Assembly: GCA_900708905.1 (NCBI GenBank)
Contig: CAADRB010000061.1
Span: 1,120,901-1,184,900 of the forward strand
DNA length: 64,000 bases
Origin: Hymenolepis diminuta
Lineage: Eukaryota; Platyhelminthes; Cestoda; Cyclophyllidea; Hymenolepididae
Reading direction: 5' to 3'
Shown: piece after piece, positions 33,931-57,319 of the stretch
Layout of the letters: every line of letters begins with the position of its first letter
Position numbering within the stretch: position 1 is the stretch's first letter
Notes under the pieces: generated by a model
The model's input: only the letters and a program-made list of their open reading frames with translations
What the model was told of the DNA's origin: nothing
The model's database searches: none
Translations under genes and position numbers: made by a program

Positions 33931-34200
33931 TCATTCAGCGAAACACTGCGCTCGCCAAATATCATTCTCCTTAAAATTCCTTTCTGCTATGAATTCAGAA
34001 AAGATGCGCAATACGCAAAACGATATCTTTCGCAATCTTGTTGTCATTACTTTTACCTTATTACTGGACATACCCTCTTCCGCACATAATGCCTCTTGAA
34101 AGAATTTCAGTTGTGGGAGGCCCACCAAAAAGGGGGGATAGAGTATTATACATCTTAACAAGGCTAATAGCTGACTAATGGCCCCGCAAATTTGACTCAC
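33931..34200 (-). pseudogene. Module B, copy 1
   Basis: An 89-codon minus-strand frame, the most intact B copy. Its first half shares ISQLLALLRCIILYPPF with copy 3 (ISKLVALSKWIVCPPSF) and copy 5 (ISQLTALLGCPIPPLPL). It continues with GLPQLKFFQEALC, which matches copy 2 (GISQLEFLQEILL). The segment has a mildly hydrophobic start and an acidic middle. No known domain is recognised. A GGTAAAA at 34051-34057 (minus sense) could be a donor, but the homology to other copies continues past it, so it is probably not one. Confidence 0.4.
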
Positions 34201-34209
34201 TCACTCACT

Positions 34210-35590
34210 TCAACAAGTAAGTTACCCCCAACATGTAAAATGCCATATTTAAAAGGATGTCAAATCTGGGCTGTCTGGACCGGATTCAGTGAAAGAAAAT
34301 CCCGAAGTCTAAAGAATTCAATCATCAGTATACACAAGCATTATTAAAATATCAGGTCTATTTGTGAAAAGGATGTTTGAACCAAGTGACTAAGATGCCA
34401 AAGAGGAATAATAGTAATAATGGAATAAATTATTAACATTGTAACAAATTGCACTTATTGATTATACGCTAAAAAGGGAGAGTTATTTTAGTAATAAAGC
34501 AATTGCTTAGGTGATGCCTCACCATTGTAATGGATGGGCAAATGTGACTAATTTTATTACTGTGCTATTTGACTTTAAACAAGAATTTCAAATATGCCTG
34601 AAGTATGTAATTACAAATTTTGATGAAAAGTTAGATAAATCAATCTACCACTCGAGTATAGTTAGTTTCTATAATTTAACTATCTAAATAAATTAATTGA
34701 TGTCTAATCGTTGAAAATACAAAGGAATATTGAGCATGATCTTGGTGAATTAGTTCAGTTCAGTGACTGATTTATTAAGTACAGTGTGAATTCGAAGTTT
34801 AAAGGTGTGCGAACAAGTGCTTTCGTAATACTTTTAATCATGACAATTGATAACATTTAACTTTAATGGAGAGCATTTGCAGAACGTTAGCTACTGTTAA
34901 TATAAGCTTCCAGTTTATAACTTTGGAAACGACAGTGGAGCAGAAAACCAGTGTCTTAAACGTGGTAAATTTAGAAAATTGTTTGCTCTGATCTCAAATA
35001 AATTCAAATAGAAATATCAACTGTGGTTTATTCAACACTATAACTGAAAATAAATCAAGATCTGATGATCAAAATTGAAACTACTCAATGACGAAAATCA
35101 GAGAAATAATCTGTTCTAAAGGCTAGAATGTTACAGTACGATATGGTCAGCGGTCACATTAAATATGTTTCAAGGTGTAACTAACCGAGATTATTTTCCC
35201 TGCATCATTTCAAAATTATTATTAAGAGTCATTTTTCTCCTTTTCGGAAGTCTTCTTTAAACATCATTTCAATTAAACGGATCAAATAAAAAGGAAAAAA
35301 GATTATTCAGTAAGTTGAAATTTTACTCAGTTTAAGAAAAAGAAGTGTGTGAATGGCTTGACATCAATTAAACATATTGATGCCATATTCTTTAAGCTCT
35401 AAACATACTTATCAAATGCATAAATATTATATATTACTAAATTTTGCCGTAAAAGGAGTTTTAACTTTTTAATGCATATCATAAATGCAAAACGCTTGGG
35501 ATCTTCAGTACGCTAATGTTCAACTCGTCTTGAAAACTCTTGGTTATATATGATACCGCTTTTTAATTGGTCTGAATAAAAATACACAAA
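34210..35590. other. Spacer of the array
   Basis: AT-rich sequence between modules B1 and A1. I see no gene or further repeat copy. Confidence 0.5.
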
Positions 35591-35594
35591 AATT

Positions 35595-35865
35595 TTCTTT
35601 GTGAAATATTGTGCTGAGTAAGCAAACATGTAATAAAATGATGGGCGAAGAGATGCTCACCCCTCCAGATTCGCAAAAAATTTTACTTTACTAAAAACTC
35701 TCTATCACACATGATCGTCAACACAACACTTTCTCCCCCTTCTATTCTCTCACGAACCAATTTGCTGTGAGTCATCTATGTAAGTATGATTAAATCCAAA
35801 CTCGGTGCAAATTTCAAATCATGCATGTTTAATTTTTCACTAGTTTTTCTGAACAGCTAAATGAA
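35595..35865 (-). pseudogene. Module A, copy 1
   Basis: Plus-strand hallmarks shared with the other A copies are GTGAAATATTGTGCTGAGTAAGC, GATGCTCACCC, the CACGAACCAATTTGCTGTGAGTCA-like block near 35750-35774, and the downstream AAATCATGCATGTTTAATTT. Read on the minus strand it gives a VDDH motif and, after a frame change, VSISSPIILLHVCLLS. This parallels LVISLHACLLSPG in copy 4. It contains stops and a frameshift, so it is not a working exon as it stands. Confidence 0.4.
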
Positions 35866-35869
35866 TAAG

Positions 35870-38245
35870 TTCTTCACTCATCTAAAATAAGTTCCAATTG
35901 ATTAAATATATTATTTAAATTTATCGCAGAATATTTAAAATTTAGTTAATTTAGTGCATTCGGTGTTTTCTTGAACTATTGCATTGCTATCTAAAACAAT
36001 AAGCATTATTGTTACACAAATGAATATATTCCTACCATATGACAAAAAAGGGGTTTTCAATGAACACTTTAAAGCATTATAAATATTTTTAAAAAAGATA
36101 TTATAATAAAAGTATCATCGTCATTTGTTATATCATTATATAACTTATATTTAAGAAATTACAAATAGTCCATATTTAAGAGAATTTGAAATTAAATCAC
36201 GTAAGCGTTAAAATTTGGCGTTACGGATATGCACTTTCTTCTAATATCTTACTAATAAGAACTTCCGTGTGCCGTTCTCCGTTATGAAAGCGTACAAGAA
36301 TGTGAAATTTAGTTTAAGAAAACAACAAATAACATTTCGCTAAACAAGCAGCGTCTAAGACTTGAATCTACGAACGATCCCTGCCATTGTCTATGTTTTG
36401 CCGCATTGACTGATTTTAATCTAACATGCTTATTTTGAATAACTTATAAAACACATTACCATTACCCTTTTCTCATTAAAATGTATTCAAACACACTGCA
36501 CAATTACAATTATGGCATGTTGGAGTTGGTATATGAGGGCAAAATTGCGTATGACAACAGCCCTTTTCAGCGCAGTTGGTTAATAAGTAGTCTTCCAATT
36601 CAAATTGTCGCAAAAAACGCCAAACACAAACAGTTTTAAAATTCAGAGTAATATTACTTATTTGCGGATATAACATACGACTGAAAGTCAATCCGGAAAT
36701 GTTTTACAACTGAAGTAACTCACTTAACGTAAGCATTATAATTTAAATATATATATTAAACATACTTTGTCATTAGTTTTAATCCGGTAAAAGCGCTTTA
36801 TTATTTATAGCAAATGAAGTGATATCCATTAAAAAATAAAACTATAAAATATTAGTCGAGTCGCATAAAATTATAAGTAACAACATTTTATTCAACCTTA
36901 AACAGTGTCCATTGGGAAAATATATGCATGATAAAAGAAATTAAGCTTATCTGTGTCAAATTTAGAGGTCATGAGCTTTTTACCTCAAAGAAGTCAAACT
37001 CATTAAGTGAGAAAGTGTTTATGTTTCAGCAGACGTGACCGACTGTGGTTATTTCAAGTTATCGAAACTGCTTTTCCCCCTTCCTCATCATCCTAAAACA
37101 TCCAGGCAACATCAAAAACCCCTACTTTTTCTCAAAATTCACCTTATTTACATACGTAGTTGTTATCAAGCATAAAATGCAAATCCAATTGAAAATTGTA
37201 ACAATTTCCACAAACAGATAAAATATCAAGGAATTTGTAAAATATAAGAATTTTATAACGTACGCAATTATTTCATATTTACTGTAATTGTATACAATTA
37301 TAATAAAGTTACAATCAGCTATTTCTTATAAGATTTCCGTTATAACTTCAGAATATCAATTACTCATAAAATGATATTCCTCACAAATGCTTTTATTTGC
37401 TGTAAAGCGAGTATATATTGAATGTATTACCGATTTTGTGGTTACTGACAGACGATTAGACTACCACATGCGCTTTACATTTAATAAAAACCACTATGTT
37501 TCCAACCAAGTTGCGATAATATTGAACCTCCTGAAAGTTGAGTGGTCAATATACAGTGGATAATAGTGCTTTATTGATAAAAAATAAGTGATCATTAAAT
37601 GTTTTCCCTTCAAGTCATGTATAAATATGTCATGATCATTGATCAATAAATTCAAATGAAAATTATTTAAACAATTTCTATTGCTACTATCTTCAGAATG
37701 CAGTTCAATTTATTCCAAAACATGATGAATTCAGAGCAAAAAAATTAATTATTCATAGCAAAGCAAAAAACTACAATTTTTAATCGTGGAGAGCGTCTAA
37801 CTAAAGGCAGTGATAGAAGTGACTTAGTCAGTGTCAGAGTTTTGGGGGTAAATCAGGGCTCTAAATGATTAGGTTATCTGCATTTTGATTGTCTGTCATA
37901 ATGTTTTACATTAGCCCCTGTCATCACCTTATTGAAATTTCCGGTGGCATGCTTTCAATTGATTTTGTAACCACCCTATTTTTGCATAGCTCTTGCAACA
38001 TCAATCCACTAGACAAGAAATTCTGACAGTTTATGGAAAATCTGAATTTTGATGATTGTTAATTCACCAGTTTCTTCTCACCTCACACGTATTTTACAGC
38101 TTTTATTTGCTGTTTTGTTCTAGTAGGCTCAAGAAAGAGTTGTATTATGACGTGTTTCAAGAAGTTTTGCTCAAGATTTAATGGTAAGTACTTTCAGTCA
38201 TAGAACTGACATGAGCATCAGAAGCGGTCTTTGGCCTTCATGAAA
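35870..38245. other. Spacer of the array, upstream flank of the LINE relic
   Basis: AT-rich sequence with no supported gene. The minus-strand frame 36476-36691 ends in a cysteine-rich stretch (8 Cys in about 33 residues), but it has no signal peptide and no repeat copy supports it. The lower-coordinate limit of the LINE relic may lie inside this stretch. Confidence 0.5.
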
Positions 38246-38249
38246 TTAA

Positions 38250-39570: not shown

Positions 39571-40360
39571 TTGGTTAAAGTAAAATTTGAAGAGTAATCC
39601 ATTGGCTCATGAAAGCCAGTAATATTCAGGAATGTATTATCAATATTAAATATAATTGTAGCTAACCGATTTGAAATAAGATTTGAATTCATGAGCCTGA
39701 TTTCGTGTATTATTGATGAAAAATGTAACAAAACTAATTGGTATGAAGTTATTTTGTATGCTCAGAATTATAAACAGTAAATTCGGGGATTAATTCAGTT
39801 TTTGCCATTTTAGCAGTTTAGTTTCTGTTAAAACGCCCCGTTGGATTCTACGAACAGGCAGTTCTTGCGTAGGAGATAAGCTATTTAGTTTGTTGTGAAA
39901 GACCAAACATTCCATGGTGATAGAATTCAGAGCTAATGTTTCTGATTTTTGCTTGAGTTACCATGTTCACATTTTCTGGAGAATAGCAATGTTTTCCTTT
40001 TAAAGCCTCTTTTATGGTGGCGCATTTTATTCAAATGAATAAAAATCCCATGAGTTTTGATGCATCTGTTATCAATTTGAAATGACTAGTCTATTTACAC
40101 TCAGTATCTCTGATTTACCCACCTTAATTTAGTCAGCTGTGGTTATTTCGTAGAAGAGTATTTTAGTCAGTTAGATAAATAATATGACCTCTAGAGAAGG
40201 TCGTAAAAGGGCAGTTTAGCCCTTGCACATTTTGTAAATGGGAAAACTCTGTATTGGAGGTCTAATCTTTAATAAACCTGAAGTGAGGTTTTTATTTATT
40301 CAATAGACAAATCACAGTTTCTATGAAACTCAAAAGCGGTTTTTTATTCAATATCTAGTA
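39571..40360. other. Upstream flank of the LINE relic
   Basis: This may include the degenerate 5' part of the LINE endonuclease on the minus strand, but I cannot align it with confidence. No other gene is seen. Confidence 0.4.
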
Positions 40361-40364
40361 AATT

Positions 40365-40600
40365 TCACAACATTAAGTTTTGCTTCCGATTTAAACAAAT
40401 ATTGTGCTTCAATCCGTAAACCGCAACTTTTCTGTTGCCACTGTCGATATCTAATTCTTGGGCATGACACACTTTCACAAGCAATATCTCTTGAAGGAAT
40501 TCTAATTGTGAAATACCGGCTAAAAATTCGAATGTCTGTGAGAATGAAATATCATAACAAAGTAACCAAATCACTAACTAAGCCACCACTTGAAAAAATA
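40365..40600 (-). pseudogene. Module B, copy 2
   Basis: A 69-codon minus-strand frame with GISQLEFLQEILL followed by HAQELDIDSGNRKVAVYGL. It aligns with copy 1 (GLPQLKFFQEALC), copy 4 (IGNVQELGKINVNRGEIM) and copy 6 (NVQILDISNDSRNKV). DNA identity to copy 1 is clear over about 150 bases (for example TTCCTTCAAGAGATATTGC versus TTCTTTCAAGAGGCATTATG in minus sense). The reading frame through the D-I-x-N segment is shared by copies 2, 5 and 6, which favours a coding origin. Confidence 0.4.
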
Positions 40601-40609
40601 CACCGTTAG

Positions 40610-41830
40610 ACATAGGGTGACCTAGGCGATCCAAATTTATTTAAGTAAAGGGAGACCACAAAAGCCAAACGACGCTCTGATTATACATTAAGAACTTTCA
40701 TACTCCACTGGAATACAAATGGATATAATTTTTCTTGAAAGATTTTCTGGACAAATATAGATATGGCGAAAGATGGATAATAGTAGAACTGAAAATGTAT
40801 TTATGAATAACCGCACTTAATATGCTTTGTAAACTGGAAGTTATATCACTTTATTTAATAAATATTTCTATCCAAAATCCGATGATCTTTTGTTCTTAGA
40901 CAGTAATATTCAAAAGATGCAGAAAAATTGTGGTTAGAAATAATCATAACCGATTTTTTTCCCAAATGAATATTTTGTGGAATAAAAGTTACAGATGCTG
41001 AATGAAACCAAATGAAACTAAGTTTGCAAAATCCGATTGGATATATCTTTAGATAAGATATACTACAGGATACGCAAAACAACAGACTCCAAAGCACTTT
41101 GATTTAATTGGCACTTATCATCCAACGAAATTATTTTAAGAATATTTGAAGCATTAACCTACTACATACTCTGATAATAATTAGAAATAATAGAGTAAGT
41201 TCATGTTCCATTCTATTCATTTGAGGAATTTTACTTTGAGCAATGTGCTCCATTTTGTTATAAAATCATCTTTATTCAACAAAGATGCAGTTAAGAAATA
41301 TTGATCGATGGGATTTTATAAGATTTAATTTGATGTGTAAGTATATAAAGGACATAATAAGGTGCTCTTAATCTATTAACATTAATGTGAATACACTTAT
41401 AATTATGAAAATTTCATTTAAAACTCTTCTATTTCGACAGTTCAATATCTATTTCAATGTGACACCCTTCCTATCTCTACAGAGCAAATTGAATAATTAT
41501 ACCGGATCACATGTTCGAATTTTTTAACTAGTGAATATATTTTGTACCTTTGTAAATAAATAAGGTTATGATAATAATTATCATTGCTAATTGATACCTA
41601 TAAATATTTTGATTTTCTTTTTAAACTAGCAGATTTGTTGGTTTCGATCTAATATAGATTTATTCAGATTCTACTCTATCCTTATTATCTATCAAAACTG
41701 TCCCTAATTCCTCATGAGAATATGGAATTTGAAATCCTAATTTAATTCGTAATTTGTAAAATTTATCTTTTATTTGCGTCAATATTTGACAACTAAGTTT
41801 GAAATTACCCGAATAAAATGGAAATAAAGT
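40610..41830. other. Spacer of the array
   Basis: AT-rich sequence between B2 and A2. The minus-strand frame 40855-41097 (80 codons) has no counterpart in other units and is not supported. Confidence 0.5.
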
Positions 41831-41831
41831 T

Positions 41832-42105
41832 CTCCTTGTGAAATATTGCCCTGGGTCTGTGAGCATGCGATGGAGAAGGGATGCTCACTCTTTCTTGCTG
41901 AGAAGGTACTTTTGCTCTGCCGAAAAAGGTTTATATCACAAGCGATCGTCTATGCGAGGTCTATATCCCTTGTTTTACTCTTCGATAATGGCGTCACACG
42001 AACAAACTCGCTGTGAGTCATATACTTTGGAGAAATTTAATCATTCTTTATTATAGATTATGAATTTACTTTTTCACTGGGTTTGTTCAACAAATACTCA
42101 AATCA
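41832..42105 (-). pseudogene. Module A, copy 2
   Basis: Contains the full set of A blocks on the plus strand: GTGAAATATTGCCCTGGG, AGCATGCGATGGAGAAGGGA, GATGCTCACTC, GCGATCGTCTATG, CACACGAACAAACTCGCTGT with GAGTCA, and TTATAGATTATGAATTTAC. On the minus strand it reads RIDDRL and KYLLSKKE and, in another frame, VSIPSPS. These parallel VDDH and VSISSP in copy 1. The plus-strand frame 41838-42056 inside it is a shadow. Confidence 0.4.
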
Positions 42106-42469: not shown

Positions 42470-42710
42470 ATGTAACCAGCGAAGGACCCTTACTTTTCTT
42501 CGTTATCATTGTTGATATTTAGTTATTGAGAATTCTCAATTTTACGAGCATTTACTCCAAGTGTGGGAGGCCCAAAGGAAAGAGGTAACGGTGGGATGGG
42601 ACATCCTAACAAAGCTGTCAACTGACTAATTTCCTCGACATTTTGACATGCGCATACTAAGTAGCAACTATGCAAGCAATCAGAAAGCCCTGTCACTTAG
42701 AAGATAACGA
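42470..42710 (-). pseudogene. Module B, copy 5
   Basis: Plus-strand hallmark GTGTGGGAGGCCC (42560-42572), as in copy 1 (TTGTGGGAGGCCC) and copy 4 (TTGTGGGAGGGC). The minus-strand translation gives ISQLTALLGCPIPPLPL, then GPPTLGVNARKIE and INNDNEEK, all alignable with the other copies. It starts only about 0.4 kb after module A2, so this unit is short and may have lost its G module by deletion. Confidence 0.4.
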
Positions 42711-42714
42711 TAAA

Positions 42715-43850
42715 TTGAATTTTAACTTATAATATCTAAAATAATTCTTTGCAATATTGCCGTTTGTTGAAAGTAGCACTATTTATAACTTTTACAAAAT
42801 TATGATTGAACAGACCCCTTAAAGATGACACACAAGTGTTGTGGCTCCCAGATAATTAATTGAAATTTTATGTGGACTATTTATGTCATAAAATGGAGTC
42901 ATAATTGCCTCCAAAAGTTTGAATCAGTCGTTTAAAGAAACTAACTTCTAAATCTGACGGGATTGAATATGTTAGATCAGCAAAAAAGAGCTATCGATGA
43001 ACTGCTATTGAACTTAACATACCCTGACCGACCATGAGGAGGACAGGGAGATTTAATGTCACTGAAGGGTTACCAGTAGTGTATTTGCTATTCATGCTAA
43101 AGCATCTAGTTGTCTCTCCTATTCCATTTATTTGTGCTAAAAGGATGAATTAACTTAAAAAAAAACAATTTATTCAAATTTGAATGCAGTAATTCTACAT
43201 GTTTCTGAAAATCTCCATGCGTTCGATTTTAAATGAAACCAAAAGGTTAAAGAAATTGATGCTCACAACTAAAGAGGATGTATAAAAATGGCATTTTACT
43301 TACTTACATCATCCACCCTGTTTCATTGAAATCTACTAAATGCGAAATCTACATTCAATTTACTTCTATTCAGATAACTTTAATTCCTTGAAAATAGAAT
43401 ACATCGAAATGCTAATTACATTTTACATTTATTTCTGCCAGTCATTTTTTTACCACCGCTCGTCATGTTGTGTTTTTTGTAATGCAATTATTGACAGTTC
43501 ATATCCGCTCCTTTCATTTTCATCATGAGTCATTTTGGGGAAAATTTTTAAAAATGCTGGCAAATATTTCAGTTTAATATATACAAAAGATGAAGATCGG
43601 GATGCAAAATATTTTCCTACCGTTATCTGATTTATCAAACCTATTAGCTAAATGCAGCATATTTATGTCACCAAGAGATTAAGAGCCTAACTGTGATATT
43701 TTTCCACTGATAATAATCTTAACAATTGAATACACCAGATTATTGCAAAGTTGGACAAGAAAAGGGTGTTTAAGAGTGAATAATCGTTAGCACAAAGTTG
43801 AATTTTATGAGCACACCCTGTCGAAAGTCATTTACTAATTACGAGTTTGC
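42715..43850. other. Spacer of the array
   Basis: AT-rich. Frames 43340-43528 plus and 43450-43638 minus overlap each other, have no counterparts in other units and are unrecognised. Confidence 0.5.
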
Positions 43851-43857
43851 ATGTTTA

Positions 43858-44185
43858 TTAGGCAAATAAAAGCCTCGTTTTGCATATCGCGCAGGGCAAG
43901 TGGACACGCGATGTTTTCGTGTGAAAGATATGTTCGCACTTCTCCTTGGCAGGAAAGGTCTTTTTAATGTTTAAAAAAATATAATATCGCACTTGGTCCT
44001 CTACAACAACCGTTTTTCGCCTTATTTTTTTGCTTTTCATGAAAACAATGGGGTCACATAAAAAATTTTACAGTGAGTCAGAAAATTTGAAGGAAAAACC
44101 TCCCTATCCCTGTAAGCAATAAATCATGAGAATTTCATTTTATACTGAATTTCCTAAACAATCACACAAACAGATTCTCCGGTTC
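43858..44185 (-). pseudogene. Module A, copy 3
   Basis: A 60-codon minus-strand frame (43858-44040) covers the head. It starts from the GGCAAATAAAAGCCTC block that corresponds to AGCAAATAAAATCCTC in copy 4. The tail at 44070-44180 (ACAGTGAGTCA, then AATAAATCATGAGAATTTCA, ATACTGAATTTCCTAAAC and ACAAACAGATT) matches copy 4 almost block by block. The head is more diverged than the tail. Confidence 0.4.
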
Positions 44186-44189: not shown

Positions 44190-45150
44190 AAACAGTGCAA
44201 TAGCTGTTGATTTTATGACTGACTCTACTTTCAGAATATTTTCAATCAGATCAAATTAATCTAAAATCAATGCATTTAATACATTCCTGATTTATTAAAA
44301 GTGAAAATTTAAAAGAAAATAAAACTTTCGTACCGAATTTCAGTATATAGAATAAAATGTTTAATTAAAGAAATTTATAATATGTTATCAGAATTTAAGA
44401 TGAATCAATATCTTAAAAAGCATTTTTTCGGAGAATTCGAGCAATAGAACGTATGAGTTGATGCTGTAAATGTATAAATTATAACTATTCAACTATTTAA
44501 CGCAAATAACGCTTAAACGGGAGTGTGACTTCCACAAACTTATTTAAAATTGGTTTCTTTTGGAAGTATCCTACATTTAAACATATATAACTTGGTTTAT
44601 AGGACGCCGAATTGACGGCGATGCTCTTGAAAGCCAGCAAAGTTGTAATTACGAACTAGTCCTCTAAAGCTAAGACTTATAAAAGTTACCGCTAGTTAAA
44701 AGCATTATTTACATTTATTGTAATAAAAAACTTAGATCTTATATTGGTGAACCACACACAATCATTTTTGAAACATAGGTCATTTAGAAAGACATGTACG
44801 ACGTTTTCAAGTTAAAGGACATCATGATTATTTTTCGTCTTCCCAAAATACTGTAGATGCATATGATTAGACTATATATAATATTCTCCAAAGTAATGAT
44901 GACGCTCCATTATTTAATAGCTCTAAGGATAAAATTAACCTTCAATTGGAATGAAAGATAGCATAAGTTGTTTTTAATAAAACCATTAATGGATAATTGG
45001 ATTGAGTAATGGAGTACTTGTGAATCCTGACTCATTAAAGCCCTTGCTGAATTTATTTGTTTACAAAACCCTCAAGCAGTAAAGAATCAATCTGTTTGGT
45101 TTGGAATAATTGTTTAAATACTGTCTCTATGAATCCTCTTTCGAATTTAA
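44190..45150. other. Spacer of the array
   Basis: AT-rich sequence between A3 and G1. No gene is seen. Confidence 0.5.
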
Positions 45151-45154
45151 TTGA

Positions 45155-45250
45155 AACCGATTAGGGCATCTGCGCAGATGCAGAATTTATTTATCACCAA
45201 ACGGGGAATCTTCACAGCGACCAGAAATAAGACTAAAATAAATATGGTTG
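45155..45250 (-). pseudogene. Module G, copy 1 (hydrophobic segment)
   Basis: On the minus strand it reads LFLVAVKIPRLVINKFC followed by ADALIGFN. Copy 2 gives FSFSVTVKILKLTLNEFC and AKALI. Copy 3 gives FILFFNSLVNENEFFIP and AELICFN. The first part is hydrophobic enough for a membrane segment. In minus sense the module follows TTTATTTTAG, a good splice-acceptor sequence, seen only in this copy. It lies about 230 bases from module B3. The similarity extends downstream in plus sense (TTTTAGTATTCA shared with copy 2). Confidence 0.35.
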
Positions 45251-45479
45251 TAAGAATTTTAAAAAAATTGAAATTATATTATTCTCTTACAGCCTAATGA
45301 TAGGTAGAATACTTTTAGTATTCAGTTTCTGTATGAGCGTATACACTATGTTTAATAGATTTATCAAATGGACTTTTGAGTGTTTACTAATTATGAGGCT
45401 ATCAACGAACAGCCACCAATGACTGCTGTCCATTAAAGAAGAATTAAAAATTCAATATTAAATAAAAACATTTAATATG

Positions 45480-45700
45480 CTATGATAAAAAGGCTTTTTA
45501 ACAATGAGAATACATTAATTCTGGGCATTATTGTAAATAACACTATTTTCACCAAAACCAAATATAATTTATTCTTCTCGGATGTGGTGACTTTAACCCA
45601 ACTGTTGGAAATTCCCTATTTCACACATACTACCTCTTCAACAAATTCCAACCACAGGAGGTCCATGTAAAAAGGAGAGAGTGTTAAGGCAAACGATATA
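45480..45700 (-). pseudogene. Module B, copy 3
   Basis: In minus sense it reads LWLEFVEEVVCVK, a stop, then GISNSWVKVTTSEKNK. This aligns with GLPQLKFFQEALC and downstream sequence of copy 1. The plus-strand block CAACAAATTCCAACCACAGG with AGGTCC corresponds to CAACAAATTCCAGTTGTGGG in copy 4. At least one stop interrupts the frame. Confidence 0.4.
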
Positions 45701-45709
45701 TTTTGGCAA

Positions 45710-46130
45710 ATGTACCAAATATACAAATAGCCATGAACAATCAGCAATCATCCAGCTCTCAAAAGGTCACATAAACATTACTTACAAATAAAATCAAATT
45801 AATGAATTTAACACCCTTTTTTCATTTAAATTGAATTAAAGTTTTATAACTCTAATAAACAGGAGTTTCTTCAATCCAATTTTGAGTTTTCAAATTCTAA
45901 ATAAAGTTATTTTTCTTGTGATCAGGACAAATGTCAAAATATCTCAACAATAAGCGTTATATTTGCCTTAAGTTATTATTTAAGTTCGTGAAGATTGATA
46001 AATAAATAGGAGTAGATACATTTTTTTATTTACGTTGCATTTTTGGAAAAAAATAATATTTACAAAATCGAGCATCTAATGAAAGTCCAAGACACTAAAT
46101 TGGCATTCGCTGATTTGAAAGCAAATAAAA
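45710..46130. other. Spacer of the array
   Basis: AT-rich sequence. No gene is seen. Confidence 0.5.
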
Positions 46131-46400
46131 TCCTCTTCAAGAAATCCTGGGCTGAGTAAGCAAGCATGCAATGAAATCACGAGGAAAGGAGTGCCCACCC
46201 CACACACTTTTCCCTCGTCAAAAGCCCAATATAACTCATGATCGTCTGCTCCACCATTTCCTTTCCTTATTGTGTTCACTCGAACAAATCCACAGTGACT
46301 CACGCGCAGTGGAGGAATTAAATCCCCATTTCTCGCAGATTATAAATCATGTAAATTTAATTTTGCATTGAATTTGTTAAACGTATGGACAAACAGATTT
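46076..46400 (-). pseudogene. Module A, copy 4
   Basis: A 75-codon minus-strand frame (46076-46303), one of the best preserved A copies. It contains GADDHELYWAFDEGKVCGV, then LVISLHACLLSPGFLEED. The corresponding residues in other copies are VDDH (copy 1), IDDR (copy 2) and CDEH (copy 8). The non-coding tail extends to about 46400 with AGATTATAAATCATGTAAAT and TGCATTGAATTTGTTAAAC. There is no signal peptide and no recognised domain. Confidence 0.45.
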
Positions 46401-46404: not shown

Positions 46405-47100
46405 ATTATTTCAATTTTTTATAACAATTCTTATAAACTTAACAAAAACACGTATTGGCTTTTGTTAAAATAGTTTTGTAAATCTACAAAGGCGAAATAC
46501 GCGGTTTAGAAGTCAGTCTTTCAGAAGGATGAAATAACATGTGGAAATGGGAAACCTAATTCTAATAGAGTATATAAGGAGGTACTTTGGAATAAGCAGT
46601 TCTCAAAGGAACAGGATCACCGGTTATAATGAGCGGAAGTATTTGCCATACTCCTTCTTAAGTCTGCTTTACAAGTTTGAAATTTTTTTTATGCCCACTA
46701 ATGATAAATTACAACTCAAAAAAATGTTGGAATAAGACGAACTGTTTTCTGGTTAAAGTGAGAAATATGCGGATATCATGAACGAAAGCATTTAAAATTT
46801 CTCGGAAAATATGCTAAAGTTTTGGCAATTTTAGCCAAAAATGAAATAAATATCTTCCAGAAATGCTTGAACCTCCATCTTCGTGAACTTGTCAGTAAAT
46901 AACTCTGAAAATTAGACCAGTGTTGAATAAAACTGATCATTTCTATGATATGCATTACGAGAATACACGTTGTGTTTAGTGAATTACTCCGTAAATTATA
47001 ATTTATTGACAATTTTTTAATAAAAATTTTTACTTTACTCAAGCAAAAATTATTCGATTACTCTATGAATCAAATTATGTTTTGATAAATAATTTAAAAT
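46405..47100. other. Interior of the 46.1-47.7 kb unit
   Basis: Between A4 and G2. Two frames (46541-46735 plus and 46776-47042 minus) have no clear counterpart in the other units, although a TTTTGTAAAT(C/A)(T/A)ACAAA block near 46480 recurs near 42255. Not supported as genes. Confidence 0.4.
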
Positions 47101-47104
47101 TAAA

Positions 47105-47195
47105 TTAAATCAAATTAATGCCTTTGCTGGGATGCAAAATTCATTTAACGTCAATTTGAGAATTTTGACGGTGACCGAGAATGAGAACAAAATTA
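47105..47195 (-). pseudogene. Module G, copy 2 (hydrophobic segment)
   Basis: The plus-strand block GGGATGCAAAATTCATTTAA corresponds to GCAGATGCAGAATTTATTTA in copy 1 and CAGGGATGAAGAATTCGTTT in copy 3. On the minus strand it reads FSFSVTVKILKLTLNEFC followed by AKALI. It lies about 150 bases from module B4, the same order and similar spacing as in the other two units. Confidence 0.35.
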
Positions 47196-47339
47196 TGCAT
47201 GAAACACTTCAAAAGTGATATCGTATTTACTTCTTACAACCGACTACTAAAAAAATTATTTTTAGTATTCATTTGTAATAAAACGCATTCTGTGCCTCTA
47301 GCAGTCTTATCTAAGGGAAGGTGATTGTTAAATAGTTAA

Positions 47340-47721
47340 AGAGATGTTAATCAACATTCAACAGCGATCGTGCTCAGCCAAAGAATCGTCAAACATAAAT
47401 GTAAAGATTATATTTATCATATTCAATAAACTCATTCTACGTGCATTTGTACATAACATTCTTTTCCAACGTCCATTTCCACAAAAGCAAGCCAAAATAT
47501 ATATCATTATTTCTCCTCTGTTGACGTTTATTTTACCCAACTCTTGGACGTTCCCAATTTTGCACACAATATCTCCAACAAATTCCAGTTGTGGGAGGGC
47601 AGCAAAAAAATGAAGGGGGACATACTATCCATTTGGACAAAGCGACCAACTTACTAATTATCCCGCCAGTTTGACGCACACAAACAGCTAAGCACATAAT
47701 CAGACATCTTCTGTCTTTCAA
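47340..47721 (-). pseudogene. Module B, copy 4
   Basis: Two overlapping minus-strand frames (47533-47721 and 47358-47567) together span the module, showing a frameshift in between. The first gives ISKLVALSKWIVCPPSF, as in copy 1. The second gives IGNVQELGKINVNRGEIM, as in copy 2 (HAQELDIDSGNRKV). This split is direct evidence that the copy is broken. Confidence 0.45.
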
Positions 47722-47724: not shown

Positions 47725-49840
47725 ATTACCATCTTAAGAGGCTTAAGTGATTTTAATATTTAAATAAAGCAAAACTTGAATACTCAAGAAAAAATAAAGA
47801 AATTTGATAAAAAATTCTTTGGATTCACACTTCTGCTAGGGCATAAAATTTTATTGGATAATTCTATTATACCTCCTCTGAAACAAAACTATTCAACCTA
47901 ATGAAATCAAACAACTCAGTTTCGTTTGTGACCTACATTTAAAAAGATGACATATTCTAGTCTGGAACTCTAAAATCTATTAATATTTCATATTCTTTAC
48001 AAATGAGTTACTTGTAGACAAAGAATTAGCTGTGAAAAAATGATACATTTGCGAAAAGTCTCTTACTAGTTTAAGAAAAATAAAGATGTATTAGGTTTAC
48101 AGAATTTTATAAGAAGTTGATCACAAATTTGTCCGTTCAAAAACAGTTAAATCAGTGCTAAAATCGACATGTGGAATGAAAAAATATTGTGCATTGTGTA
48201 AATATATCTGCCCGTAATCTGATTATTTACAACTTCTAAGGAAATATTATTTTTTGACATAATAAAAATAACTCACAGGTTATTATTAATCTTCTGTGTT
48301 TCTCATATCAAATTGTATTAAGACTGGAGTTCCTTTAAGTTGAAAATAAGGCAAATCGATAAATTATTATAACAGTTGCGAGTGATTTATAAAATGTAGA
48401 ATATAGGAAATATTTCATTCTCTTATCCTCTACTCAAAATTTGACCAATGCGCGAGTAAAAATGTTCCGATTTTATAGTCATTAATTTATCAATGCAAAA
48501 TCTTATGAATAATTAAAGGGAAGATCGACCTCTTATTTGAAAATTTAATCCAATCGTCTAGTTCATGTCATTCAATCATTTTTCTAAACATATGGATCAA
48601 CTTTAGGTACTTTTAATACCCGTTATACTGTAAAAGATTGGAAGAAAAATAACGGCAGAATTTATACGTAAAATGTCTTATAAGTATTTGCCAAAATTTG
48701 AGTAAAAGTTTTGAATTTACCAGTAAATTTTCTTTACTCTTTAACTCTAGAATTAAATAATAATATTTAAGCAGGCATTTTTGAACTTAGATATAAAATT
48801 TGTCAATTCATCTTTAAATGTACATAAATATATAATTCTCATTATAGCTGATCGTTTCTGAACTATCAGGCTGTGTCAGTATATCCTATCTTTGTCATCT
48901 CCATCCTGTGGATGTGAAAAAATTTTAAATACGCTGACGAATTGTTCACTCTAAAATAATAAATAATTGATTTTAAATATCTTGAACATAAATCCATTAA
49001 GGAATTGAGATCAAGTCTTGAATTCGTTGTAAAGTGCTTCCATTGAGGAAAATATGGGCAAAAAACTGTTATTCGAAATGATAAAGTAAGAATTTTTTAC
49101 TTTGAGTTGAATATTTACGTCATTATAACAAAACATAAGAGTTTTGCCGATTTTTACTGCTCTTTGGGTTCAGATATTCTTTCCTGATAAAAACATAGTT
49201 TTTCTCGAACAATACTGGTGTTGATAATGAAAACAAAATATTTTAACAGATTGTACGCTAAAAATTTACTTGTGGACTAAAGTATGGCACCCCAATGATG
49301 CCCATAAAATATTTTTCTGATAGAGTAAAAAAATTTATTTTCACTTAAAATCACTTTTGAAATCACATTTTTATATAATTTGAATGAAATACACCTTGTT
49401 GAATACGTTGAATATATTAAGAGTGCTGAGGTCAACCCCAAGATTTGCAAAATCTAATTCAGGAAATTTCATTTATTAAGAAAATTTATGCTCTCGTTGA
49501 TTAACATTTTTTGACAATCTCATGCCATGCTTCTTTTCTCTTTCAATCATTTCATTTATGAGTGATCACAAGGAACGCTTTAAGTGCTTTATGTCGAAAT
49601 GTTTACTAAAAACAGGTCAGACAGAAATAAAGTATATTCTGCTTTGCTGTTTTGGTTTTTATCTACCTAAGGTCAAAATAAATCAATACAGTAATATGAC
49701 AAAGCACATCTGAATCAATTCATTTCAGAGATTTACCAAAATGTGCGGAATATTCTTGACTGTTCTAAGGCACAAGAACTTTGAATGAAATAATGAAGTG
49801 ATTGTTAATATTTAGTAGAAGAATTTCGTTTAAGTATGAC
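47725..49840. other. Spacer of the array
   Basis: AT-rich sequence without supported gene. The frame 49522-49713 (plus) is unrecognised and unsupported. Confidence 0.5.
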
Positions 49841-50170
49841 TAAATTTCGATTTTCATACGTTTATTGCAATAAAAAAACATGTTAACGTGTTGCATAGGA
49901 GAGCATATATTGAGTAGACAATAAATGGACGTTTCATCCCTCCATTTTCCTAAAAATGACTGCTCATCTGTCACATAATAACACTCATATAATATTTGGC
50001 GGTCTAATTCACTTTCTTCATTCCATGTACACTTCATGATAACAATGATATTGCACGAATAAATTTACTGCGTGTAGGTAAATTTGGAGATTTGTTTCCT
50101 GTTCTAGAGATTACAAATTGCATGAATACAAATTTGAGCTGAATTTACTTTACAAACACGCCAACTAAAT
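49840..50170 (-). pseudogene. Module A, copy 5
   Basis: A 65-codon minus-strand frame (49840-50037) covers the head. The tail at 50045-50165 shares the CACGAATAAATTTACTGCGTG, TTTGGAGATTTG, GAGATTACAAATTGCATGAA and GAGCTGAATTTAC blocks with the other copies. The coding-like head is more diverged than in copies 1, 2 and 4. A short tandem motif (TATGTACAA, three times) follows at 50348-50385. Confidence 0.35.
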
Positions 50171-50330: not shown

Positions 50331-50386
50331 ATAATATATATACATATATATGTACAACGTATGTACAAGACATTTATGTACAAGAG
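50331..50386. repeat. AT run and TATGTACAA triplicate
   Basis: An alternating AT stretch (50331-50352) passes into three imperfectly spaced copies of TATGTACAA. This is simple local duplication, with no function suggested. Confidence 0.7.
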
Positions 50387-50494
50387 GTGTAGGGTATCTG
50401 AGAGCACTTACATTTATGCAATTCAAACTAACCCGATAATAATCAGTATATTTTTATATCAAAAGATCTCATCGTAGATACTAGTATAACTAAT

Positions 50495-51375
50495 GAAATA
50501 AAACGGTACGCTGTAATAGTGTCTATAAAATCGAAATACGGTAGTTTAGAAATTGCGAGATTTCTAAAAGTCGCCAGATTTTTCGATAGCGAAGTTAAAG
50601 AGGAGCTGAATGAAAACAATGGAGATGAATTATCAACAAGTAATAGAAAACAGGAGCATTTTCAAGGCTTTGACTCACTTAGAACACCCGAGTTTATTGG
50701 AAGAGTGCATGGTATGATGGACAAAAATCATGGGGAATCAATTTCACATCTTATCTAGGATCTTCAAGTGTCTGAAGGAACAGCAAGGACTGTTGTTCCT
50801 CAAGACCTCGGATGCAAGTCATATGTCTTTATTCGGATGAGTTGAACAAAAACAACGTAAGAGAATCGTTTAATGCGTGACAAACGACTCTCAAATAAAT
50901 TAAAGTACCCAGAAGAACAGCATAGTCTTTGGTTTTTATCCAAAAATTTCTCCTAGGATCGAAAAGTTAGCCGAAGAAACGATAGGTGACTGGGTGCGAG
51001 CAGACCCCATTGAAGTTCCAAATGTAATGCATGCGCACGGAATTTCCAGTAACAGTGATGGTTTCCAGTTTTTTTAGCAGTGAGAGTGAGGCACATCAGG
51101 ACTCGTCAATGTTTACATAGGTCCTTAGAGTCAATGCAGATGTCTATGTCAAGACTCTTCAAACAATTGTTGTTAAATCTTAGATGGACAGCTTAACCAA
51201 TGGAGGAAGGCCCCATTTCTTCCAACAAGATTCGGCTCCATCCCATAAAGCTCTCATAACACAAGATTGGATGGAGCTAATTAAATTTTCGAAGTTTCTG
51301 CATTCATCTACTCGACATTTCATGGCCTACCCCTTTATTGCTACATCTTGTCCACTTTGTTAACGGTTCCGCTTA
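50495..51375 (+). mobile_element. Mariner-family transposase relic
   Basis: The plus-strand frame from about 50495 aligns with mariner transposases over nearly the full protein. It has an N-terminal helix-turn-helix region, then LRTPEFIGRVHGMMDKNHGE (50681-50740) and DLQVSEGTARTVV (50759-50797). The region of the first catalytic aspartate reads WFLSKNFS (50930-50953) where the family has W-F-S-D-E, so that residue is lost. RRNDR follows, then in other frames RADPIEVPNVMH and LRVNADVYVKTLQTIVV (51124-51174). The second catalytic aspartate is kept in QQDSAPSHKA (51223-51252). In-frame stops lie at 50756, 50843, 50858 and 50954, with at least two frameshifts. The C-terminal PDLNP-type motif is not recognisable. 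Terminal inverted repeats were not found. It sits inside array unit A5-B6. Confidence 0.85.
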
Positions 51376-51379
51376 AAAT

Positions 51380-53280
51380 AGGTTATCTAAAGTGTTTATC
51401 ATTCTCATGTCTAGGAATGCATAAATTTATCATGACGGAAAGGCAAAAATTGACTATTCGTGGATAGAAGTGTAATAGCGGTCCCATGTCATCGTTATAC
51501 CACTCTAACATCAAAATAGTAGTAAGTCACAGCATGTCGAGATCCATGTTCATGCATCTATCGGTTCTTTATCTGCTTAATCGTATTGTGCCATACGTTG
51601 AAAATGAAATATTAATTTTCACTTCAATCTTCCCTGGCCGGTCACAATCCCGAATAACTGGCTTCTTAATTATACAAATGTACCTAACTTGGCTAGTAGG
51701 CCATTCATGTCTTGTTATTCATAGATTTCCTTCTCTTCCTTACTGAGTTCTGCGCAACTCTAGCATATTTCAAGTAGTGGTTCAAAAACACATAGCAACA
51801 GATATGAATTCTTATTCAAATAATAATTTTCCTATTATTCTAGAAATACTTCTTCTGAAAAACACGTCATAAAGAGGTACCATTACTTTCGCTGACACAG
51901 AACTATCGTTGCTGTGTGAAAAATTGAACAGAGCAAAAGCAAAAAAATGTTTCATGTTTGATAAAAGTATTGCGATAATCACATTCAAAAAGCATAAATC
52001 GAAAATTATGTCAAAAATATTTAAATTAATATCAGGTAAAGCACTTCATAAAATACCAGTTGAGCATGATGCGTAGAATTTTACGAAAAATGTAAATTGA
52101 AGAACATTGCTTTTAATATTACGACCTCCTTTGTAACTGTTCCTATATCAAATGTGTTAACTTGGGTGCATTTGCCATTCTGACGAAAAAATTTTCAAAT
52201 GTTAGGGCATCTTTTCTGAAGGTAACGTTAACGATGTTTAACTTGGGTCGATGGAAGGGGTGCCCACTTGATACTGCGGGAAAATCGCAATGCCTTCTCA
52301 TTATTAGAGATAAAATTAATTTGACTGACAATCTATGCCATTGGATAAACACCAACCAGTGATATAACCATTATCGCAAATATCATATTCTTGCAATATT
52401 ACGGATTTCATCTGATTTTGATCAAATATATAAAAGTTAATTAAATAAAACACATTTACAATCATTCTTTAAGTGTAAATGAAATGATAAATAATGTAAT
52501 TTGAAAAGAAACCCCCGCATTACATTGTAAATATAATAATTTTTTATTTGTATAAAGGTCAATGCAAAATAGCTTCTTTTTACGAAAAAGAAATGAATTC
52601 AAAAGGTGAGATTTTGACCATCTAGAATTGATATATTTATTTAAATATATAAATTATTCAAATTTAAATTTAAATTCTTTTGTTAAGCAAGAATAAAGAA
52701 ACTATCTGTCCGTCAACTGACCTTTCCCCATGTCTATATATTCAAAATAAATAAATCTTATGGATTAAGGATTCTGCAAAGTAAAATGGGTTCACCTCGT
52801 AATAGTTGCACGAAATAATTCAAAATTAAAACAGTATTTTGTGTTCGTTAGAAGAATAAGGAGGCTTATTGCAGTCTTTTAATATTAATAAAAAAACGTT
52901 GCCTTTTTTATTCAGAAAAATAGACGTCTAATAAAAGAAATAACCACATTTATAAAAACCTTTTAACTATTACGATCGTTAATAAAATAATTCAGAAGGG
53001 AAAGATTGTAGACGGCATTACCCCAACTCATGCATAACTCATTTCCACTACTAAAAGCTTTTTAGATAAGATTATTTCTTCAATTTGAACAAGAGATGGC
53101 AGTCACTTCCATTCCATTCATATCCACTATGTGGATCAATAGAATAAATGTGCAAACTGATTCACTGTCAGTTGGTTTGAAATTAGGCTTTTTTACACTC
53201 AAGCACAATTCTTCCACCCGTTTTTTAAGTGAACACTATTGATTGATGCATTTTAAATCTCTACAAGGTCTACCTTAATT
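51380..53280. other. Interior of the 49.9-53.9 kb unit, downstream of the mariner relic
   Basis: No supported gene. The frames 51486-51746 plus, and 52162-52362 plus with 52143-52355 minus, lie in pockets of more mixed composition. They are unrecognised and the latter two overlap each other. The 3' end of the mariner element probably lies in the first few hundred bases. Confidence 0.45.
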
Positions 53281-53284
53281 AAAA

Positions 53285-53400
53285 CAAATTAGCTCTGCCT
53301 CAGGGATGAAGAATTCGTTTTCATTAACAAGAGAATTGAAAAATAAAATAAAAAGTACAAAATATCGCCCTTGAAATTTTTAAAAATAAGAATAAAGCAA
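53285..53400 (-). pseudogene. Module G, copy 3 (hydrophobic segment)
   Basis: Plus-strand TTAATTAAAACAAATTAGCT and CAGGGATGAAGAATTCGTTT parallel copies 1 and 2. The minus-strand translation gives FILFFNSLVNENEFFIP and AELICFN. The upstream context and distance to module B6 (about 250 bases) match the other units. Confidence 0.35.
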
Positions 53401-53639
53401 TTATTTTTACTATAAGGTAGCTAGAACACTTTCTTTAGTTAGTTGAGAAAGGAAGACCAGAGATGGACTTTTGGAAAACATATATGGAAGGTAATTTGGC
53501 GATCACGCATGAGGAAGTCTCCCATTTAATGCAAGTTTTAACAAAAGTCCATTGAAATCTAATATTGGTAATGCGTTTATGCTATAATGATGCCAAAGCT
53601 TGTGTTCTCATTCTTTGAAGTTACCCTGTAGATTGTTGT

Positions 53640-53860
53640 CCGAAATGTATTTTTATTTCAGACAAACCCACTTAACTTTATTCCTGCTGTCATTACTGAT
53701 ATCCAATATTTGAACATTGAAATTTTCACACGAATGTTTGCTTATTGGAATTTTATATGTAGGAGGCCGTGAAAAATGTGGAGGAAATTGGGAATGAGAT
53801 ATTCCTGTGTTGCCAGCCGACTAATTGGTCTCCATTTGCACACAAAACGTCATACAGGCA
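53640..53860 (-). pseudogene. Module B, copy 6
   Basis: The minus-strand reading contains NVQILDISNDSRNKV followed by KWVCLK, close to HAQELDIDSGNRKVAVYGLK in copy 2. Farther upstream in minus sense, in another frame, is RPISRLATQEYLIPNF, comparable to ISQLLALLRCIIL of copy 1. The plus-strand GTAGGAGGCC at 53759-53768 corresponds to GTGGGAGGCC. At least one frameshift is present. Confidence 0.4.
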
Positions 53861-54109
53861 CACTATTTACTGCACATTAAATAAAATAGCTAGTTGCATT
53901 AATGGCGGGAGAATTCATTTTGACAGATTTTATATTTAGTTTAAAATATATGCAAATTTTGAATATTAGCATTTATCAACAACGGAAGGACTTGTAAATT
54001 GAAACTAAGTTTTATCAAAAAATTATGCTTATTAACATCCAAATTACGACAATCGGCGTTTATTGTGATTTTGTACGACTATATTTCAAATTAAATCATC
54101 ATTTTCATT

Positions 54110-54170
54110 TGTTGCACTGAGCGAGTGTGCATTCAAAGAGGAATATGAAGAGGTGCTCAGTATATTTGTT
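54110..54170 (-). pseudogene. Module A fragment, copy 6
   Basis: The plus-strand TTGCACTGAGCGAGTGTGCA and GAAGAGGTGCTCA match the head of module A (TTGTGCTGAGTAAGCAAACA and GAAGAGATGCTCA in copy 1). Only about 60 bases are recognisable. Confidence 0.3.
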
Positions 54171-54174
54171 GGGT

Positions 54175-56030
54175 AAAGTAGACTAAAAGAACTTTTTGAC
54201 TCTTCTAAAAGACCATCTTGTCAAAAGTGTTTGTTTATCGCGTGTTGCTATAAGTACAATTAAGTTGTGAGCCAGAGGCTTCAAGTTGTTTAAACCCTCT
54301 TTCTAAACTGATTGTTAAGCATGCAAATTGGACTTTTTTCTGTATTTGTCGTGTAAAACAGAAGTAGTTTCCAAACTTCTGCAAAATTTTTCCCTTTTCT
54401 GTTAAGTCGCCAGTGGAATAGTAATAATTCATTTCTACCTAACCTTATATTTTTCATGATTTTTTAACATCTTGCAATTTACAGGTTGCTGAAATTGTTG
54501 GTCTGAAGTGAAAGGGAGATTAGAGATTCGTATTTGGCTACCTCAATGGTGTATTGTAAAACTTTGTCTTTATACCTTACACTGTAATATTTGTCTGCAA
54601 GTAGAAGAAAAGTATTACATTTTTGTAGAGGTCAACTACAAGAAGTTATTATAAATAGAACAGGTGCTCTCAGGAGCCTATATATAACACTCATCTGATG
54701 ATTATGAAACTGAGATGGGATAGGGTTCTCCTAGTTACTAACTCAAGCTAGTACTGACTAAAATATCTTTTTTGTGGAAAAAAATTCACTTCCTTCACAT
54801 GTGAATACATCCCGTAGTTACAAATTTAACAATGTGTCAACCCGAGTTGATAAATAACATTATTTATCATAATTAAAAGGACAAAACGATGACCGGTGGG
54901 CCTGGAAGACAATGCATTTTTTTGTTAGAAGTTAGCCTTGTTGACCAAAGAAGACAAATCTTGGTTTTGAATCTTGTTATCAAAGGAAATGAAATTGCAA
55001 TGTCGTTTAACAGTTTTTTCCGTCCTCAGCGTAAAATATATATTTTATTTCCTTAAAATAAATAAAGTTATCGAATTCATATAAAGTATACATATTATTT
55101 AACTAATCATAATACAGGGGTCCTAACTCTTTTCCTCTCGATATTCAGAGGTGAAAATGAACTATTTAAAATTCAATAACAGATCAGTACCGGCATGCTG
55201 ATTTATTCAATAATAGCCTCTTTGATAAAAATAATATTTAGAATGAATAAGGATAGCATTAAATATATCCATTATATTCATTGTATCTTTAGATAGAGTG
55301 CATAATGAAATACCCCTGCATAGTAGGTCAGTGAGAATCCGTTTGATTTGGACGAACTATCAGAATCGATTTTATCATCCTTTCTTCACTTTGTGATATA
55401 GTTTTTTGATGTACTGTTTTGATAAATATTCTCATCTAAAATAAAAGGACTTAATAAGTGTGCACGAATGGTAGCAACCTAAATCCCCTAAATACAGTTG
55501 ATATAACTTGCCCTAATCTGTGGCAGTTAACGTGACATCTAGACTTCCTCCGTAATTGGATTAATACCAAGTATAAAGCTGACAGGAACACAAACCATAC
55601 CAGCCAATTCAAAATGCCAGATCAAGACGCATATTCCACGCTCTAACTAAATGTTAATTTTACAGATCGGTTTGAATAAAAGGATATAAAAGCAAGTACA
55701 AATTAAAAGGTGAAAAATAAAACTTCTACATATCCAAATTACTTTGGTAGAATATTAACCTTCTAAATATAAAGCGGCAAAAAGATTTTTTATTATATAT
55801 GAGATGTCTTGAATAAGTTAATGAAATTATTGCATTGAATTTTCTATTTAAAGTCAAATTACCTTTATCTAATTTGAAAATTAAAACACTATGTAAACAG
55901 CTCTATTAAAAACAAAAATTTCAATTGGTGAAATTAGGAGATTAAAAACCATTTAATATTTTCTGTTGAACCAATCGCATATTAAATATATGTTTGTGCG
56001 AATTTGGTACAACTAATTTAACGTCCAGTT
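54175..56030. other. Spacer of the array
   Basis: AT-rich sequence without supported gene. The frame 54235-54432 (minus) is unrecognised and has no counterpart in other units. Confidence 0.5.
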
Positions 56031-56034
56031 ATCT

Positions 56035-56175
56035 AGTTACCATTGTGGTCATACGAACAATTTGCGGTGAAATTAACTCTTTGGGAGATTATATTCTGCT
56101 TCTAAGAGAATTATAAATCACAGGAATTTGATTTTGCACTGCACTTGCCAAGGAAACCTACCAACACGTCCTTAC
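56035..56175 (-). pseudogene. Module A tail, copy 7
   Basis: The plus-strand CATACGAACAATTTGCGGTG, AATTATAAATCACAGGAATT, TTGCACTGCACTTGCCAA and CCAACACGTCC blocks match the tail of copies 4 and 5. The coding-like head is not recognisable on the low-coordinate side. Confidence 0.35.
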
Positions 56176-56814
56176 CAGGCAGCATATCTTACATTTTTGT
56201 GTACTGTTTATTTTTCTTAGGGTGTATTTTATAATAAGGGTGCCGAGAAAGAATGCGTGGCTTATTTTGTAAAAGTACTATTTCTGATACTTGCCTTAAA
56301 ATGCATGCTTTCGAATCTTTTGAAAATTTAAATCGAAATTGTTCATACGAATGGCAATGAGTAATAATGCTTTAAATATTTCATAACACAAACAAAAGAG
56401 AAATCTCAATTGGATAATAAAGTAGGATGCTTAACTTTCAGACAGAAGACAACAGGATTATTTTGAACAGAAAATTATTAAAATAACAATTTTGTTATTT
56501 ACAGATCTTTTGTTTGCTATTAAACTCTATCTTTGATTCCATCATGTAAATTAATATGTCTTCAATACAGGGGTTTATTTACAAATTTACGAATATTCAT
56601 TGATTTCAAAATTATATTGTTAAGACTTTGCAAAGATATTATGTCATAATATTTTAAAATGCACTGTGTTCGAAGTATATCAAATCAGTTTTATTGTAAA
56701 ATGATAAGCATTTTTTTATCAAAATTTCACAAAGATAAATCAAAGTTGTAGCTGAGTAGCTAATAAAAATGTGAATTCTACATGACTTGAAAATTGATTA
56801 AATTTTTTATTTGA

Positions 56815-56985
56815 GAGGATTTCTCGAGTAAGGTAAGAGAGGAAACGCTAGCTACTCTTTCAGATGCCACTCCAAAAATCGCTTCCTCAGATGTGCTTAT
56901 ACATGTGTGCTCGTCACAATTCATGATGTACCGCCGACAAACATACAGTGAATCACTTGAAGGAGTGAATACGTAAACAATTCTT
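56815..56985 (-). pseudogene. Module A head, copy 8
   Basis: On the minus strand it reads CDEHTCISTSEEAIFGV, then ASVSSLTLLEKSS, alignable with GADDHELYWAFDEGKVCGV and SLHACLLSPGFLEED of copy 4. The plus-strand CAGTGAATCA near 56946 corresponds to CTGTGAGTCA. It marks the high-coordinate end of the recognisable array. A possible further trace (GAGGAGAAATGCTCACTTA) lies at 57168-57186. Confidence 0.35.
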
Positions 56986-57319
56986 CTATTTCAATAAAGG
57001 AAAACTTTGTTAATTATGACATTTATTTTATCCACCCGCAGAGTGTTTAAATTCAGAGAAATTTAAAACATAAAATGAAAGTTAAAATTACTCTGGTCGT
57101 TCTATTATTCAAAAGCGAAATTTGTGTTCGAGTCTTTTTGTTTAATAACTTATATATGGATAGGATTGAGGAGAAATGCTCACTTATCATATTGAACTTG
57201 ATAGTACTTTTCAGCAAATTAAATAAAAGAGGTAAATTAATTTTTTAACATCATTGATTGTTTAAAATACAAAGTAGTGTTTTTTAGTCGGTTAAATAAT
57301 GTGTTTTCCAACCAGAGGT

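Follow-up and report, generated by a model that had tools for sequence, protein, structure and literature searches.

An old, diverged tandem array of alternating modules at one locus of the Hymenolepis diminuta genome, possibly a non-protein-coding unit

Long-period tandem repeats and satellites are head-to-tail copies of one unit. Tandem gene clusters with pseudogene relics hold local copies on the same strand, as at the UBA-domain gene that neighbours the locus described here, of which relics about 58-72% identical are left as islands. In duplicated conserved non-coding elements (e.g. HOTAIR; PMC7139118, in the parts of that paper covered), paralogous non-coding blocks are kept and their flanks have diverged. 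In these respects all three are like the subject of this work, an array of alternating sequence modules, named A and B, in 64,000 nucleotides of the tapeworm Hymenolepis diminuta (contig CAADRB010000061.1, positions 1,120,901 to 1,184,900; this whole stretch is called the window). None of the titles and abstract openings listed for such arrays and for Hymenolepis or cestode genomes describes it. The words “tandem” and “lncRNA” (long non-coding RNA) are absent from the main text of PMC6890685, and the parts of that paper covered do not mention the array; PMC7653826 uses “tandem array” for the spliced-leader genes of other flatworms and, in the parts covered, does not mention the array either.

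Profile searches placed six copies each of A and B, with one B probably consisting of two pieces, between 33.97 and 56.17 kb, alternating and all on the minus strand. A hidden array in one orientation, with A and B in alternation, had been proposed from the letters alone (the original prediction), and the profiles agreed with it on both points. Repeated local tandem duplication followed by long divergence, which had also been proposed, is well supported, because the modules share one orientation, alternate and were found nowhere else; their copies are 44-68% identical in the profile alignments, with 0.025-0.027 gap openings per aligned column. We tentatively read the array as a tandemly duplicated, locus-specific and non-protein-coding unit that was once, or may still be, under constraint; a non-protein unit seems most likely because the modules show no conserved frame. 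The parts of the array were as follows (positions in the window; E values come from profiles built with that copy left out, or from core profiles that it was held out of).

33965-34197, minus strand: module A copy 1 (A34); left-out E=7.8e-25
35561-35858, minus strand: module B copy 1 (B35); left-out E=1.6e-29
40404-40594, minus strand: module A copy 2 (A40); left-out E=1.7e-14
41798-42102, minus strand: module B copy 2 (B41); left-out E=8e-31
42479-42647, minus strand: module A copy 3 (A42); left-out E=5.4e-13
43484-43592, minus strand: block G copy 1; pairs with 48862-48969 (68%, 91 columns, E=9.7e-6 among spacers)
43840-44171, minus strand: module B copy 3 (B43); left-out E=1.9e-20
45120-45472, minus strand: block C, directly 3' of A45; A+C at 45 and 47 kb align over 622 columns (59%, E=1e-29)
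45531-45732, minus strand: module A copy 4 (A45); left-out E=2.2e-13
46100-46394, minus strand: module B copy 4 (B46); left-out E=3.6e-37; 87-codon open frame at 46079-46339
47075-47436, minus strand: block C, directly 3' of A47; from the A+C 45/47 alignment and the iterated profile
47447-47676, minus strand: module A copy 5 (A47); left-out E=6.8e-31
48862-48969, minus strand: block G copy 2; pairs with block G copy 1
49934-50165, minus strand: module B copy 5 (B50); held-out match to 49988-50165 only, E=8.1e-5, model positions 6-185
53269-53336, minus strand: probable block C piece, 3' of A53, in the expected place; held-out E=0.016
53636-53841, minus strand: module A copy 6 (A53); held-out match 53656-53845, E=2.4e-12
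54064-54212 (to 54352 by iterated profile), minus strand: module B copy 6, 3' part (B54); held-out E=3.8e-4, model positions 190-330
56037-56151 (56027-56165 by iterated profile), minus strand: module B 5' part (B56), belonging to copy 6 or forming a seventh copy; held-out E=1.6e-7, model positions 20-136

The array was recovered alike by four approaches: self-BLAST, profiles refined by iteration, profiles lacking the copy under test, and queries with single copies. The sequence compared was 264 kb, consisting of the 64-kb window and 100 kb on each side (9,550 bases were N). Sensitive self-BLAST (E<1e-3, both ends within 33.7-56.2 kb) gave seven same-orientation and no opposite-orientation matches, while the other 22.5-kb bins, with both orientations counted, had no more than two internal matches apiece. 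The exception was the bin at 80-102.5 kb, with eight same-orientation matches, of which five were decayed UBA-gene exon stretches and three were short local repeats. Profile iteration can inflate scores, and the test was therefore repeated with copies left out: recovery was at E values between 6.8e-31 and 5.4e-13 for the five core A copies, between 3.6e-37 and 1.9e-20 for the four core B copies, and at 2.4e-12 (A53), 1.6e-7 (B56), 8.1e-5 (B50) and 3.8e-4 (B54) for the copies that had played no part in building the core profiles. With single queries, 10 of 13 module stretches matched other copies at E<=1e-3, all within the array and on the minus strand; only 2 of 40 random 300-bp pieces of the window matched anything.

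Read along the minus strand, the order was B(56/54) A53 (C) B50 A47 C B46 A45 C B43 A42 B41 A40 B35 A34, with homologous units adjacent and in the same orientation, as in a tandem array. The period was about 2-3 kb in the core, close to the unit of about 2 kb first suggested, but about 6 kb at both ends, where that size did not hold. Block C, an addition to the modules A, G and B first described, lay directly 3' of A in two copies and probably in a third; a further candidate at 33.73-33.78 kb reached only E=2.9. Of the A-G-B order said to occur three times, two G copies were supported, but the third candidate gave only E=1.4. In the held-out test, the match of B56 was to the 5' portion of the model and that of B54 to the 3' portion; the two may thus be pieces of a single B, interrupted by about 1.8 kb of DNA that arrived later and contains a dispersed repeat. 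Against this, in the iterated profile B54 aligned over model positions 15-323, its 5' part included, in which case there would be seven B copies and one missing A. In the spacer between A34 and B35, 34578-34703 matched 35810-35930, at the 5' edge of B35, in the same orientation (65%, E=6e-4), and may be one more piece of a B edge.

The 100 kb on either side yielded no additional A or B copies, and the next best match of the core profiles in the whole 264 kb had E=0.99. Three patterns, two from B (27 and 35 nt) and one from A (25 nt), searched with up to three mismatches in the genome (170.6 Mb, 203 contigs), gave 2, 1 and 1 matches, all within the array, and the same patterns read backwards gave none. 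Module copies scattered over the genome in both orientations, which would have spoken against the array, were not seen. Within the array itself each pattern picked up just one or two copies, and the scans are compatible with a handful of equally old copies elsewhere; we estimate that a family of more than about ten would probably have shown. BLAST of the whole unit against the genome found the query alone and missed the array's own paralogues, and is no evidence of uniqueness. Within the pattern (genome) and profile (264 kb) searches, the unit was confined to one locus.

The region does contain transposon relics, and this is the point in favor of deriving the modules from an old mobile element of low copy number that carried A-B repeats internally, or from nested insertions of two element families. 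A relic inside the array (50420-51238), which from its protein pieces we take to be mariner-like, shared 72% identity with an opposite-orientation copy located about 43 kb ahead of the window; a dispersed repeat at 37744-38001, also inside the array, had at least 39 other matches genome-wide, and another at about 55664-55757, between B54 and B56, at least 19 others, both of them in both orientations. The modules, unlike these repeats, occurred in one orientation and in alternation, without dispersed copies in the pattern searches, and such an origin appears improbable. That transposon insertions would not give this arrangement had been argued from the start, and within the sensitivity of the searches we agree. 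As separate observations, the dispersed repeat at 29193-29596 had copies in both orientations within the 264 kb, that at 7446-7734 had three copies there, all opposite to its own orientation, and three same-orientation repeat pairs (68-72%) lay outside the array (11903-12054/17139-17292, 15139-15304/19422-19585 and 15120-15214/59152-59251).

The main argument for a past or present function, drawn from paralogues in one genome, is the difference between modules and spacers. Alignments stood above shuffles (z>3) for 24 of 30 module pairs, vs. 1 of 25 pairs of like spacers and 1 of 30 pairs of unlike spacers; the sole like pair was the one holding the block G pair. Into the comparison went the six A modules, all B pieces but B56 (six of seven) and 11 of the 15 segments between modules, of which two were shortened. 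In simulations of a 680-bp spacer with insertions and deletions, 30 trials at each of 36, 40 and 44% substitution gave detection in 30, 30 and 28, respectively. Because a spacer diverging like the modules should still be detectable, the modules most likely evolved more slowly than the spacers, and they behave between paralogues as constrained elements do relative to flanking DNA. The array could otherwise be a neutral relic, a 2-3 kb segment amplified in tandem and simply decayed, with the islands being what insertions and deletions spared; the low identity (44-68%), the many insertions and deletions, the other DNA in the array and the lack of any sign of present function fit such a history. 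The spacers beside the least diverged pair (A+C 45/47; 59%, 622 columns) nevertheless showed nothing (z=-0.5 and 0.5) where the simulation predicts easy detection, and the same two islands were kept in every unit; we therefore regard neutral decay as unlikely.

The unit had been thought to be a minus-strand multi-exon gene (B, G, A), and this was not supported: no shared frame, no protein relatives and no consistent codon signal were found, with tests of moderate power. When codon similarity was tested by shuffling columns, p<0.05 was reached by 3 of the 39 module pairs, on different strands. Pooled three-base periodicity of mismatches gave p=0.023 for the core A pairs, 0.48 for B and 0.38 for A+C, and mismatch rates by codon phase in A were 0.42, 0.44 and 0.45, without a clear codon-position pattern. 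Apart from the A periodicity, no shared open frame with codon-like substitutions between copies was found. Four decayed UBA-gene exon pairs, used as a positive control, gave codon-similarity p=0.047, 0.012, 0.010 and 0.12 (the best frame of the 0.010 pair being on the strand opposite to the gene) and a pooled periodicity of p=0.056; the power of these tests is moderate only. The corresponding codon-similarity values were 0.63 for the mariner pair, 0.41 and 0.24 for two other repeat pairs and 0.10-0.66 for four array pairs.

Searches with translated frames were negative. Minus-strand frames of 33.9-48.9 and 48.0-53.0 kb, with stops replaced by X, gave no Pfam family above cut-off; PilZ-like (E=0.038) and NTP_transf_5 (E=0.008) were rejected as below the cut-offs. 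Four single frames likewise gave only two sub-threshold families (E=0.13 and 0.057). Among 5.8 billion proteins, none had enough words in common with the B46 frame to become a candidate, and this frame had no match in Pfam, in the PDB or elsewhere in the genome; the A47 frame, searched against the genome and the PDB and not against the large protein database, had no genome match and only a chance-level PDB match (E=0.48). Relics of neighbouring genes were also considered and rejected, as 1250 translated flank frames compared with the window matched nothing in the modules, and hit dispersed-repeat stretches, the mariner relic and an 18-residue stretch at 21.3 kb. A codon-usage scan, trained on 15 neighbouring open frames, marked only two marginal segments in the stretch of about 100 kb from about 19 kb before the window to position 82.7 kb, at 15.2 kb and at 46.1 kb, inside B46; the segment overlapping the 87-codon frame scored 11.9, one of only two scores above 10 in the window.

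These results bear on the main rival reading, a cluster, now dead or dying, of copies of a fast-evolving protein gene on the minus strand that was duplicated in tandem; in it, A/C and B would be former exons and the spacers former introns and intergenic DNA, constrained while the copies were genes and losing their frames afterwards. The single orientation, the exon-sized islands, the partly gene-like codon usage of the B46 frame, the A periodicity and an AG resembling a splice acceptor, shared at one alignment position by six of the seven B pieces, are in its favor, as are the five same-strand relics of UBA-gene exons, which show that tandem gene copies do decay here. The few codon-similarity signals on different strands, the flat phase pattern in A, the lack of periodicity in B and a B46 frame without relatives speak against it. 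On balance, the modules are not coding-like in appearance, and a dead gene is a possible but somewhat unlikely explanation.

Several results weigh against a constrained non-coding unit as well. Conserved RNA structure was not found (RNAalifold energies of -0.33 and -0.05; folding z-scores of 15 modules on both strands between -2.15 and 1.65) and Rfam gave no match, whereas covarying structure or such a match would mark a structured-RNA array. Invariant runs were absent (of 5 bases in core B and of 4 in core A), which is weak for a regulatory cassette. Modules were defined by similarity, so part of their contrast with the spacers is built in, and the constraint argument rests on one simulated 680-bp spacer, several real spacers being 218-376 bp long and harder to see. 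The A periodicity, too, counts on this side, together with the decayed same-strand UBA-gene exon copies nearby, because gene-copy decay occurs in the region. These copies were five stretches of 57.6-72.4% identity, located in at least three places between 18.7 and 29.5 kb beyond the end of the window (L021-L023).

Among candidate signals, the heptamer TGA[C/G]TCA, presumably AP-1-like, was present in all four core B copies (its middle base switched once) and in none of the three other B pieces (4 seen in B vs. 0.39 expected at the window rate); given that core B holds no invariant 5-base run, it is a lead only. A hairpin-like stretch at 48846-48955 on the minus strand (z=-4.3, the best of 838 windows) overlapped block G but was rejected, as the other G copy folds differently. 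A tRNA search gave nothing, and a bacterial promoter scan (28 found vs. 32.3 expected) was set aside because a bacterial model is not meaningful for animal DNA.

With these points weighed, the non-coding, locus-specific unit is still the reading that we tentatively prefer. A B-A-C unit of about 2-3 kb, read on the minus strand, would have been copied head-to-tail, presumably by unequal crossing-over, to at least six copies at one place in a gene-poor stretch of the genome. The spacers would later have diverged beyond recognition and other DNA would have been inserted, with A and B still alignable, as was C in the pair that had diverged least. The module/spacer contrast and the simulation suggest that the modules were under constraint for a good part of this time, and the constrained unit may have been repeated non-coding sequence, serving as exons in a non-coding transcript of the minus strand or as cis-regulatory cassettes for genes nearby. 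A bolder and more doubtful version is that six paralogous non-coding cassettes (A-C and B) are still functional, acting as repeats of a long non-coding transcription unit or as a group of enhancers for the neighbouring protocadherin genes, with copies free to diverge.

Left of the window lay a protocadherin, a CDK5RAP3 gene and an XPD/FANCJ-type helicase, and right of it, on the minus strand, the UBA-domain gene (the domain comes from a domain search; we take the gene to be TDRD3-like), a Nup84/107-family gene and a second cadherin gene. The left protocadherin (L017:5410-8868, plus strand, with cadherin domains), about 21-25 kb before the window start, was identical to Hymenolepis diminuta Protocadherin-1 (100% over 1153 aa) and 89% identical to that of H. 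microstoma; among the 120 matches listed for the second cadherin there was no named Hymenolepis protein, and the top one was unnamed (96%). COX1 was looked for in the assembly without success. The two cadherin genes (L017:5410-8868 and L026:2222-3808) are on opposite strands and flank the gene-poor stretch of about 100 kb, with other genes between on the right, and both are possible targets if the array is regulatory. Two right-hand flank frames had no match in the PDB, and a short segment near the UBA relics resembled a Nup107 exon by eye.

Arrays of this kind may escape notice because whole-unit genome BLAST returns the query alone and the longest period covered by Tandem Repeats Finder, in the run used here, was 500. 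Should the modules prove constrained, six diverged copies would make the constrained and free sites of a non-coding unit readable from one genome, and the array would be a concrete, testable locus in a tapeworm; if they are dead gene copies, they show how far a tandem cluster can decay and stay recognisable. With regard to the systems described at the outset, the UBA-gene relics match a gene with a known domain, whereas the array matched no gene found and carried no consistent codon signal. Conservation of the array is seen between copies within one genome, and not between species as for duplicated non-coding elements. Compared with satellites, the array gives no sign of homogenisation, its copies being 44-68% identical to each other.

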